This document shows positions 17,649 to 54,391 of a stretch of 64,000 nucleotides of DNA, piece after piece; position 1 is the stretch's first letter, and each line of letters opens with the position of its first letter. The position numbers were made by a program, and so were the translations under genes. Origin of the DNA: Acidobacteriaceae bacterium (GTDB taxonomy: Bacteria; Acidobacteriota; Terriglobia; Terriglobales; Acidobacteriaceae); assembly GCA_025462885.1 (NCBI GenBank), contig JAOAPN010000014.1:372001-436000 (forward strand). The letters are read 5' to 3'. Under the pieces are notes generated by a model. That model was not told where the DNA came from. It searched no databases and worked only from the letters and a program-made list of their open reading frames with translations.

Positions 17649-17723
17649 GAAAAGTCGTTGCCTTTACGCGAAGCGTCCAAGACCCCACGAAGTGGCGCCA
17701 GCCCGGCGTCAGGGCGCATTTGC
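17649..17723 (-). repeat. R2 palindromic intergenic repeat, copy A
   Basis: A minus-orientation copy of the R2 element (see copy C at 45161). Read on the minus strand it contains ATGCGCCCTGACGCCGGGC, then CCACTTCGTGG and GGACGCTTCGCGT, two small hairpins with TTC loops, and ends in CAACGACTTTT. It lies between convergent genes, 18 nt after the phosphatase stop and 5 nt from the stop of the YncE-like gene. Confidence 0.8.
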
Positions 17724-19079: not shown

Positions 19080-19268
19080 CGGCAAGGGGTAGAGATACAT
19101 ATACCGTAAGGGCACGGGCATTACATCTCGGGGTGTGGTCGTCACGACGGATACCGGAAGGGCGGGGGCTAACATCATCGCTGCGCGATTGCATCTCGTC
19201 GGATACAGTAAGGGCGCGCGCGTAACATCGTCGCTATACGGTTGAATTCCGTCGGATATCGGAAGGGC
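19080..19268. repeat. Degenerate 50-53 bp tandem repeat array
   Basis: Four imperfect units follow each other, each ending in a GATAC-type stretch and AAGGGC. The AAGGGC boxes are at 19108, 19158, 19210 and 19263, giving periods of 50, 52 and 53 bp. Units two to four also share ACATC near the start and a central TTGAATTCCGTCGGATAT-like segment. The last unit runs directly into the left end of R1 copy a, whose sequence it shares. The array lies upstream of the YncE-like gene. Confidence 0.65.
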
Positions 19269-19419
19269 ATACCTTCAGGTATGCCGCAAAAGCATCCCTC
19301 TCTACTTTTTGTTTCTTGTGTCGATTTGCCATAGGCAAACCGACACAAGAAACAAATCAAAATACGAAGCATCTGGCCCACCTGAAGGTTGGCCCTTCCA
19401 AAAGCTACATCTGCCTAAG
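19222..19419 (+). repeat. R1 nested-palindrome intergenic element, copy a
   Basis: Three nested parts are visible. A left terminal hairpin GGCATACC-TTCA-GGTATGCC lies at 19266-19285. A central stem of 23 bp with one mismatch (19308-19330 with 19334-19356) closes a 3-nt loop and contains CTTGTGTCG/CGACACAAG. A right terminal hairpin GGCCCACC-TGAA-GGTTGGCC lies near 19375-19394. The right edge CTGCCTAAG overlaps the TAG stop of the ccmD candidate. Other copies are at 29764 and 47437. No transposase gene is present, so it resembles a MITE or REP-type element. Confidence 0.85.
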
Positions 19420-27098: not shown

Positions 27099-27237
27099 GG
27101 GATGCTCCTTTGGGCGGCTTTACACCGTCTACTGGAGTCATCATCGGACGATTGGCTACTCGGGAAAATAGCACGAGGGATTTGCATCATCCCCCAAAAG
27201 TTGTAGTGCAAATTCGCGGTTTGGCGCCAGGCGTACC

Positions 27238-27303
27238 CGCACGCGAAGCGTCCAATAACCCCACGAAGGCCCCGTGGTGCCTGCCCGGCGTCAGGGCACC
27301 TTG
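27238..27303 (-). repeat. R2 palindromic intergenic repeat, copy B
   Basis: A minus-orientation R2 copy. Read on the minus strand it has GTGCCCTGACGCCGGGC, a CCACGGGGCCTTCGTGG hairpin (about six nt longer than in the other copies) and TTGGACGCTTCGCGTGCGGG. It begins 39 nt beyond the stop of the M28 peptidase gene. Unlike the other copies, it is not between convergent genes. Confidence 0.7.
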
Positions 27304-29763: not shown

Positions 29764-30002
29764 CTAGGCAGTATCGACCTATACAGTGGTTACATCTTCG
29801 CCGGCGTGGTTGAATTCGGAAAAATATGAAGGATATTTGGAAGGGCATGGCTTCAGCCATGCCGAAAGCAGCATGCTCCTCTATCCTTTGTTTTTTTTCG
29901 GTTTGCCATCGGCAAACCGACAAAAAAAACAAATCAAAATATGTAGTGTTTGGCACACCTGAAGGTGTGCCCTTCCAAGAACTATAGGTCGATACTGCCT
30001 AG
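29764..30002 (+). repeat. R1 nested-palindrome intergenic element, copy b
   Basis: The most complete R1 copy. The ends are a perfect 20-bp inverted repeat, CTAGGCAGTATCGACCTATA at 29764-29783 and its complement at 29983-30002. Inside are hairpin GGCATGGC-TTCA-GCCATGCC (29844-29863), a central stem with CGGTTTGCC/GGCAAACCG (29887-29907 with 29911-29933), and hairpin GGCACACC-TGAA-GGTGTGCC (about 29952-29971). The TAG stop of mscL is the first codon-sized piece of its right end. The 189 nt between the M28 start and this element show nothing else. Confidence 0.9.
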
Positions 30003-30391
30003 ACGGCCTGGGTGCAGAACTTGCAACGGGTCGCCGCCAATGGCACATCGCTCAGGCATTGCGGGCAAGCCTTCGTCGTAACTGCTTCAGGTCCTTTCAG
30101 GCGTGCGATAAGGGCGTTCGAGGGAACGACGATAAAGAAATAGACGACTCCAGCCATCAGGACGAAGGAGATTACGGCATTCAGGAAGACGCCATACGTA
30201 AAGATACCGCCATGAAAGGTAAAGATCAGAGCGGAGAAGTCGGGTTTGCCTACGATTGCAGCGAGCAGTGGAGTAATGATGTCCTTGACGAGCGAGTTGA
30301 CGATCGCCGTGAAGGCGGCACCGATGATAACGGCGACGGCGAGATCAAGAACGTTGCCGCGCAGGATGAAGTCACGAAAGCCTTTGAGCAT
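29999..30391 (-). CDS. mscL: Large-conductance mechanosensitive channel with C-terminal zinc ribbon
   Basis: About 130 residues. [35 protein letters not shown] is the amphipathic N-terminus and the first, pore-lining helix of MscL; the second helix is [19 protein letters not shown]. MscL opens under membrane tension to release solutes in hypo-osmotic shock. In place of the usual short cytoplasmic helix the protein ends in [18 protein letters not shown], a CxxC...CxxC zinc ribbon. The start at 30391 has GGAG 9 nt upstream; the longer frame to 30646 is not supported. The TAG stop lies in the terminal repeat of R1 copy b. Confidence 0.92.
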
Positions 30392-30558
30392 GTTTTCATT
30401 CTCCGAAATTGGGTATAGATAACGCGTGAAGTTTACCATTACGACGCAGTTGCGGGATGACAAGCTGCTTCGGAACAGTGACTTACTGGAAATGGATGCA
30501 GTCACGGGGCCCGTAAACCTTGGATGCCAGGAACGCGGCATCGACGAAGGTCTTTTGC

Positions 30559-30924
30559 TTACTTCGTAAGGCTCAGCCAATCCAGATAAGGGTACAAGAG
30601 AAAGAAGAAAATCATGCCGACGACCATGATGTCCATGTAGATGCAAAGAATGACACCAGCGTGGTAAAAGCTCCAGCGCCGTTGCATACAGCGAATGGTG
30701 TCCGCGGTGCCGATACTGCTGAAGAGGGCGGGTATCACAAGGTAGGGATTCGCACGATTATTCGGGAAGCCCGACATAACCAGTGCGGCGGCAAACGACA
30801 GAACCACCAGTCCGCTGGCCCGGACGAGAGAGTGGCGGCGAAGGTTGAACAGATCCCTTCGAATCGTGGCGAGATACCTTGCGGTGATCGGAGAACTCGG
30901 CTCGAAGTTGGGGGGATACGCCAC
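30559..30924 (-). CDS. Hypothetical three-helix membrane protein
   Basis: A 121-residue protein that I do not recognise. The N-terminal 30 residues are polar and basic ([17 protein letters not shown]). Three hydrophobic segments follow: [37 protein letters not shown] and the long [20 protein letters not shown]. It starts 33 nt after the VWFA-protein stop on the same strand, so it may share its transcript. mscL follows after 167 nt. It has codon use like its neighbours, which supports a real gene. Confidence 0.65.
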
Positions 30925-45160: not shown

Positions 45161-45243
45161 ACAAGTGCCAAGTGCGCCCTGACGCCGGGCGGGCGCCACT
45201 TCGTGGTGTGTTGGACGCTTCGCGTGAAGGGCAACGACTTTGC
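45161..45243 (+). repeat. R2 palindromic intergenic repeat, copy C
   Basis: The reference R2 copy on the plus strand. It has AAGTGCCAAGTGCGCCCTGA, then CGCCGGGCGGGCGC, hairpin CCAC-TTC-GTGG (45196-45206), hairpin ACGC-TTC-GCGT (about 45215-45225) and the tail GGGCAACGACTTT. It fills the gap between the convergent hydrolase and papain-like genes, 24 nt from one stop and touching the other. Other copies are at 17649, 27238 and 54316. Confidence 0.85.
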
Positions 45244-47005: not shown

Positions 47006-47436
47006 CCGCATCCCCCCTGGGGGGCATGCGGGGCGTAAGTCGTTTATTCTTATTAGTTTAGCGTAGGGAGGTCTCCGCAAAATAGTCTAAACAAAAGACT
47101 TATGGCCAAATTCGTGCAACATCTCGGCTTACGGGTCGTTGTCCTTTGTTTTCGAGGTTTCTGGTCCTGCAAACGGAAACAGGTCCGGCTATTAGCCGGA
47201 CCTGTTTCCGTCTGATCTTCTGTTTCTATTTTAGCGAATGGCATAAAACTAAAATGCCACTTTTTTGGATTTATTTTTGTTTCGGTAAGCGATTTATTTT
47301 GTTTTAGTTACATGTTTTTATTGCCGGCAAAACGCTGGCCGGGGTCTTGACAGCTTTTTCCACCTCGTCGTGGCACTCGCGAATCTTTGCTCATGACTCT
47401 TGCTTCCAAAGCATGGCTCTGGAGCATCTATCTTTC
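47006..47436. other. Gene-free AT-rich stretch downstream of ubiX
   Basis: About 430 nt without a plausible gene. It begins with several GC-rich bases after the ubiX stop and contains the 18-bp perfect hairpin listed separately. It then becomes very AT-rich (about 47225-47330) before the R1 element. It could hold the promoter of the downstream papain-like gene, but the R1 copy lies in between. Confidence 0.5.
47173..47211. terminator. 18-bp perfect hairpin downstream of ubiX
   Basis: ACGGAAACAGGTCCGGCT (47173-47190) pairs perfectly with 47194-47211 across the 3-nt loop ATT. The following bases (CTGATCTTCTGTTTC) are only mildly T-rich. Likely a transcription stop or mRNA 3'-end stabiliser, readable on both strands. 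Confidence 0.55.
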
Positions 47437-47664
47437 CAGGCAGTACGACATATAGCCCTTGGAAGGTCACACCTTCAGGCGTGTCAAATGCTACGTATTT
47501 TGATTTGTTTCTTGTGTCGGTTTGCCTAATGGCAAACCGACACAAGAAATAAGAGAGAGGAGAATGCTTCTTTCGGCACACCTGAAGGTGTGCCCTTCCA
47601 AATATCCGCCAAATTCAACCATGCCGGCGAAGATGTAACGCCGGTATATGTCGATATTTTCTAG
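47437..47664 (-). repeat. R1 nested-palindrome intergenic element, copy c
   Basis: R1 in inverted orientation relative to copies a and b. On the plus strand the left edge is CCAGGCAGTACGACATATAG and the right edge TATATGTCGATATTTTCTAG. The central stem is at 47504-47526 with 47531 onward (CTTGTGTCGG/CCGACACAAG). The terminal hairpin GGCACACC-TGAA-GGTGTGCC is at 47575-47594. It ends 21 nt before the start of the papain-like paralog B, so it forms that gene's leader. Confidence 0.88.
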
Positions 47665-54315: not shown

Positions 54316-54391
54316 CAGTGCCAAGTGCGCCCTAACGCCGGGCGGGCGCTACTTCGTAGGGTATTGGACGCTTCGCGTTAGGGAATCGACT
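54316..54391 (+). repeat. R2 palindromic intergenic repeat, copy D
   Basis: R2 on the plus strand: AGTGCCAAGTGCGCCCTAAC, hairpin CTAC-TTC-GTAG (compensating change against CCAC/GTGG of copy C), then GGACGCTTCGCGTTAGGG. CCCTAACGC and GCGTTAGGG make a 9-bp perfect outer stem. It lies between the convergent GH92 genes, right after the terminator. Confidence 0.85.

Follow-up and report, generated by a model that had tools for sequence, protein, structure and literature searches.

A palindromic repeat (R1) in an Acidobacteriaceae genome, represented three times in the 64,000-nucleotide stretch analysed here (the window), is best explained as a two-layer non-autonomous mobile element, with an IS5-family MITE outside, a REPIN inside and silent insertion at stop codons. 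We assign this reading a probability of roughly 0.8. By its outer terminal repeats the unit would be a MITE that an IS5-family insertion sequence moved into YTAR/CTAG sites, with TA on either side. The inner REPIN, an inverted REP pair around a palindromic spacer, is of the type served by a resident RAYT, presumably through recognition of its hairpins. Because insertion into a TAR stop is silent, such insertions would be kept preferentially, often between convergent genes, and the palindromes probably stay paired through recognition or copying as DNA hairpins. The initial annotation had left the choice between a MITE, a REP-type element and a structured RNA. The first two both find support, since MITE-like ends shared with IS5 elements enclose a REP doublet like that at the RAYT gene, whereas the RNA gained no support of its own. 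For the origin of such palindromic repeats this suggests that a DDE-type MITE and a RAYT-type REPIN were united in a single element.

Size and anatomy of the repeat family

The window covers positions 372001-436000 of contig C10 in the host genome (G000), which comprises 5.26 Mb in 16 contigs and belongs to the Edaphobacter/Granulicella group; the nearest named relatives of its lpdA are records from Granulicella, Edaphobacter and other Acidobacteriaceae. Searching this genome with copy b as DNA query yielded 96 first-look candidates, of which 40 were scored. A covariance model matched 75 distinct places at E<=0.01, including the 40 copies on which it had been trained, and 51 of the 75 reached at least 100 bits. 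Alignment A2 comprises 40 of the 75 places, and alignment A1 28 of 31 sequences (L021, L024 and L025 were left out). The three copies described at the outset as sharing one plan are all present in the window (Table 1), and the initial doubt that only these three might exist, without covariation, is removed by the genome-wide count. At E<=1e-6 the model found matches in 15 of 62 genomes of the genus, the host counted in, with a top score of 89.4 bits outside the host versus 175.5 bits within it.

The best-preserved units measure about 225 bp and consist of a terminal inverted repeat, a left segment with a small hairpin, a REP (GGAAGGGCANNNCTTCAGNNNTGCC), a central palindrome, an inverted REP and a second terminal inverted repeat. 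Among the fetched loci 32 copies of 97-289 bp have both ends, 31 of them with called genes on both sides. The element thus has the features of a MITE: a length below 300 bp, terminal inverted repeats and no transposase. In five shortened forms (97-114 bp) both ends are retained together with a single REP that is fused or reduced. The 289-bp copy (L057, C5:108713-109001) carries a second insert in a REP loop, bounded by inverted repeats like CAGGTTGCGGAAAAAGTC.

The stem variants reported at first (GGCATACC, GGCATGGC and GGCACACC, with the loop TTCA) and those of the central stem were found again in the window copies, the left stem of copy c reading as quoted only on the minus strand. Just upstream of copy c lies another inverted repeat (47170-47214) with 22-nt arms of 95% complementarity and a 1-nt loop. 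Another repeat (GTGCCAAGTGCGCCCTGACGCCGGGCGGGC...GGACGCTTCGCGT), about 67-70 bp long, forms a second family with copies in both orientations at 17653-17722, 45164-45230, 54317-54383 and partly at 27236-27302; its longer copies are 86-92% alike, and part of its motif adjoins the element copy L056.

Table 1. Features of the three element copies in the window
Feature	Position in window	Strand	Remark
Copy a, best bounds	about 19203-19412	+	REPIN core intact (core 19261-19399), terminal repeats decayed; R1 match 146.3 bits
Copy a, left REP GGAAGGGCATACCTTCAGGTATGCC	19261..19285	+	0 mismatches to REP pattern
Copy a, central palindrome	19308..19356	.	23-nt arms, 96% complementary
Copy a, right REP (inverted)	19375..19399	-	sequence, inverted-repeat listing
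Copy b, whole unit	29767-29999		bounded by terminal inverted repeats
Copy b, left-border TA (target dinucleotide)	29765..29766	.	border inspection
Copy b, left terminal inverted repeat GGCAGTATCGACCTATA	29767..29783	+	0 mismatches in 15-bp pattern
Copy b, left REP	29839..29863	+	0 mismatches to REP pattern
Copy b, central palindrome, T-run and A-run arms	29887..29933	.	sequence and folding
Copy b, right REP (inverted)	29952..29976	-	0 mismatches to REP pattern
Copy b, right terminal inverted repeat	29983..29999	-	0 mismatches in 15-bp pattern
mscL stop codon TAG	29999..30001	-	G is element base 29999; TA is border 30000-30001
Host gene mscL, ending in copy b	29999..30646	-	MscL, PF01741, 115 bits
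Copy c, whole unit, inverted orientation	about 47439-47662	-	genome match C10:419439-419664; 151.2 bits
Copy c, biological right REP	47461..47485	+	sequence, inverted-repeat listing
Copy c, central palindrome	47504..47552	.	inverted-repeat listing
Copy c, biological left REP	47575..47599	-	0 mismatches to REP pattern

Conservation of base pairing

Folded as DNA, copy b reached -62.2 kcal/mol compared to -26.6 +/- 3.3 for 200 shuffles (z -10.8); folding as RNA gave a z of -10.4. Such values lie far outside what chance would produce. Over 40 aligned copies and 37 pairs, standard pairs occupied 97.0% of the cells. Changes on both sides affected 15 of the 37 pairs versus 5.8 +/- 1.4 in shuffles, with 69 double-change cells versus 18.6 +/- 3.3. 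Sliding the partners by 1-3 columns lowered pairing to 31-43%, a contrast that is partly built in because the structure was itself derived as the consensus from this alignment; stronger evidence for pairing comes from the double changes. The original statement that paired change implies a folded form on which selection or copying acts holds.

The variable triplet of the left REP stem falls into five perfectly paired types in 36 of the 40 copies (CGG/CCG 17, CAC/GTG 8, TAC/GTA 7, TGG/CCA 2, GGG/CCC 2), the others being two wobble and two mismatch cases. Such variation as whole blocks would agree with pairing kept by template switching that repairs imperfect palindromes, rather than by selection. 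However, the few stem types recur across loci, as expected of copied subfamilies, and we consider template switching rather unlikely.

A further question is whether the constraint acts on RNA. Selection on RNA of one fixed strand is expected to favor G-T pairs. The cells over all pairs comprised 1405 Watson-Crick, 23 G-T, 30 A-C and 14 other combinations. Hence there is no excess of wobble pairs, and the constraint looks like one on DNA hairpins rather than on one-strand RNA, although this comparison is a weak test if copies are read from both strands. Strong covariation as well as the location of copies at gene ends, often between convergent genes, would also fit a structured RNA selected at the RNA level, either a regulatory or processed transcript or an mRNA 3'-end stabiliser or terminator. 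Besides the half-changes, several findings argue against it. No Rfam family reached its gathering score within the window, and a scan of copy b, the only copy scanned, found neither promoter-like nor terminator-like sites, so that copy b was rejected as a terminator. Furthermore, the 5' arm of the palindrome carries T and its 3' arm A, which is the opposite of a terminator, and the dispersion of the copies is explained by mobility. A structured RNA therefore appears improbable, but the elements may have a secondary effect on mRNA ends.

Outer and inner layer

The terminal inverted repeats form a 17-20 bp pair, GGCAGTATCGACMTATA following the border TA, that the element shares with an 831-bp IS5-family insertion sequence in the sister genome G047. 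The suspicion that the copies might be fragments of an IS end is therefore correct for these terminal 17-20 bp only and not for the rest of the element. The end pattern GGCAGTATCGACMTA gave 103 matches in the host with at most 2 mismatches, versus 17 for a reversed control pattern. With at most one mismatch it was found in 37 of 62 genomes of the genus, and high counts were restricted to a few (56 in the host, 60 in G033, 25 in G065, 16 in G017). Many of the 16 matches in G017 are located at extreme contig ends (L276-L278, L289), which suggests a high-copy longer element that broke the assembly there.

G047 has two such pairs of ends, each spaced 831 bp and bordered by CTAG on either side; one copy matches the 15-bp pattern exactly at both ends, the other deviates at one end by a single mismatch. 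The fully read copy encodes a two-frame transposase with DUF4096 and DDE_Tnp_1 halves, scoring 138.7 and 166.2 bits against an IS5-family NCBIfam cut-off of 110, and the second copy has the same DDE half. The element thus shares its ends with a putative autonomous IS5-family element, as an IS5-family MITE does. The DDE half matched in 19 of the 62 genomes at E<=1e-5. Ten loci with relatives of the IS5-type transposase were inspected: four have proper facing ends (two in G047, one each in G043 and G039, the latter two also with CTAG at both ends), one has a single end, one has two wrongly oriented ends, and four have none.

In the host itself the DDE half, the second half and the one covered by the search, had no match. 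Since it is the catalytic half, the outer layer is probably immobile in the host today, and the IS5 link rests on the 17-20 bp terminal repeat. A facing pair of ends whose long spacing would suit an autonomous copy in the host (C6:272700/274303) was chosen as a candidate, but proved to belong to two separate remnants of the element with an ordinary gene between them. An IS630/Tc1-type origin, suggested by the TA borders, was likewise discarded, as the host has no DDE_3 and the source found elsewhere is of IS5 type.

The inner layer consists of two inverted REPs and a spacer folding as a single hairpin, which is the plan of a REPIN. Two IS200-like genes are present in the host genome. RAYTs are single-strand, HUH-type transposases. 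The gene at C2:217458 was identified as a REP-associated tyrosine transposase (RAYT) by NCBIfam NF047646 (111.9 bits versus a cut-off of 80). Its upstream flank carries GGAAGGGCATGCCTTCAGGCATGCC, matching the REP pattern of the element, and its downstream flank an inverted REP that follows the same plan but differs in its stem. Hence the element shares its REP type with a RAYT of the same genome that is itself flanked by inverted REPs. For the second Y1_Tnp gene (L051) no NCBIfam match was obtained, and its inspected flanks contained no REP of the element type. The GT(A/G)G head, which adjoins the REP palindrome in classical RAYT-REPs according to the available part of PMC2817692, is absent here: the palindrome is preceded by GGAAG, and the REPs at the RAYT read CCACGGAAGG.

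The two layers are not always found together. Among the 100 listed of 126 REP matches, 38 had no listed end (at most 2 mismatches) within 260 bp, and among the 100 listed of 103 end matches, 47 had no listed REP. These unaccompanied REPs and ends include decayed copies or chance matches as well as REPs of the RAYT kind that stand alone. Of eight inspected loci with related REP doublets in sister genomes, seven showed nothing resembling an end up to 700 bp from the middle, and one showed a weak end-like sequence. These REPs without ends, together with the resemblance of the element REPs to those at the RAYT gene, would be accounted for by a REPIN or BIME only, in which mobilisation of the entire unit is due to the RAYT alone and the outer repeats serve as no more than conserved flanks. 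Yet the outer repeats match IS5-family ends and also frame other palindromic interiors (L058 and L070 in the host; also in G018, G049, G065 and G066), and some of the REP matches without listed ends, e.g. L112, L113 and L130, keep remnants of ends. A mobilisation by the RAYT alone is thus very improbable, and the combination of an IS5-type outer with a RAYT-type inner layer is preferred. The short elements L282, L283 and L286-L288 of sister genomes as well as L070 carry a different hairpin cargo (GTCATCCTGAGCGGAGCC...TCGAAGGACC) inside the same ends; thus, several MITE families share this end.

Insertion at stop codons and relation to known systems

In 29 of the 105 terminal repeats considered, the flanking TA and the first base of the element together are exactly the stop codon of an open frame of at least 120 codons (length measured from the preceding stop), while any other offset between -90 and +30 occurred at most 4 times; these ends derive from fetched loci with flanks of 450 nt or more and include some chance matches with 3 mismatches. 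TA occupied positions -2/-1 at 68 of the 105 borders (37 had no TA), and position -3 was C or T at 88, in a sample that is non-random because the loci were fetched for their matches. Since the TA stays and the element supplies the G, insertion into any TAR stop leaves the protein unchanged. This would give a reason for the presence of repeats at gene ends and is a rule that can be tested in other genomes.

The border bases also bear on the target duplication. Under duplication of a 4-bp YTAR, the C:T ratio at -3 and the G:A ratio at +1 would mirror each other. The ratios differ (53:35 versus 87:13, p 4e-5, 105 borders), so that duplication of TA alone is favoured over that of 4-bp YTAR, as far as base frequencies indicate.

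Called genes gave a similar picture. A called stop was located 0-2 bases from the border in 19 of the 31 two-ended elements with genes on both sides (in one at both sides), compared to 18 stop codons among the 110 non-interior YTAR sites of the window (binomial p 2e-8); the remaining 12 elements touch no called stop. Convergent gene pairs flank 18 of the 31, versus 8 of the window's 42 gene pairs (Fisher p 0.001), and 13 are not located between convergent genes. As the genes were called by a home-made codon-usage caller and the null takes no account of promoters, the sharp stop offset is trusted above these p-values.

Orthologues without the element support silent insertion. For lpdA, which lies beside one element, 21 of 80 fetched loci were examined; all 21 are without the element and have the same terminal residues, and 20 have a TA-containing stop. 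For mscL, the neighbor of copy b, 57 other genomes had a match, and in all 29 orthologues examined the exact element-end string was absent next to the stop. Of these proteins 28 end within one residue of the host protein and one is 4 residues longer. The closest orthologue (G007) has the same GCCGTCTAG ending as the host and shares its terminal GTCTAG. Because orthologues without the element end alike, the insertion left the MscL protein unchanged. At the convergent pair of L003 the stretches fetched for 29 orthologues yielded no right-hand gene, and no empty pair can be presented for this locus.

Taken further, the data would permit a composite parasite with two transposition systems, a tentative and rather doubtful extension. 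Here, the IS5-type DDE layer would dock the unit silently on stops, often between convergent genes, and the inner RAYT layer could still remodel it. The 97-114 bp derivatives would then be RAYT excision products, and the family would persist after loss of the DDE transposase as 3'-end structures tolerated by the host.

Several components of this element have precedents. REPINs are described in the accessible part of Bertels and Rainey 2011 (PMC3116915) as paired inverted REPs with a hairpin-folding spacer, common compensatory changes and a link to RAYTs. The inner layer agrees with this in its inverted REPs around a folding spacer, its compensatory changes and its RAYT association; unlike those REPINs, it is enclosed by IS5-like terminal repeats, and its REPs are without the GT(A/G)G head. 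MITEPsy1/ISPsy2 resembles the outer layer as a short MITE with terminal repeats and CTAG-type targets. It is a 100-nt MITE with 18-nt terminal repeats and CTAG or YTAA targets, and its ends differ from those found here; the part of that paper available to us (PMC3189936) reports a 4-nt duplication and describes no REPIN cargo, whereas TA is favoured here. The 831-bp element of G047 has the same terminal repeats and CTAG at both borders, but it encodes a two-frame transposase, and no REPs were seen in its sequence.

The closest precedent for the element is PMC3733652. It describes REP dimers inside long palindromes in Anabaena variabilis, as well as GTAG REPs that provide TAG stops; the repeats prefer convergent and co-directional gaps, and acidobacterial RAYTs are named. 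Common to these systems and ours are a REP dimer framed by a longer palindrome and repeats that supply the stops of flanking ORFs. The sequences are different, and there the stop base comes from the REP terminus, here from an IS-type end; no IS source is given in the sections at hand.

Hence REPINs, IS5-type MITEs at CTAG/YTAA, TAG-supplying REPs and REP dimers in longer palindromes are already in print singly (PMC3116915, PMC3189936, PMC3733652, as represented by their available parts). Our literature searches turned up no account of a REPIN enclosed by an IS5 MITE, nor of elements of this kind in the genus. What is new here is not an RNA but the union of these features in one family, together with an IS5-family source found elsewhere without a match in the host and a simple rule of silent insertion.
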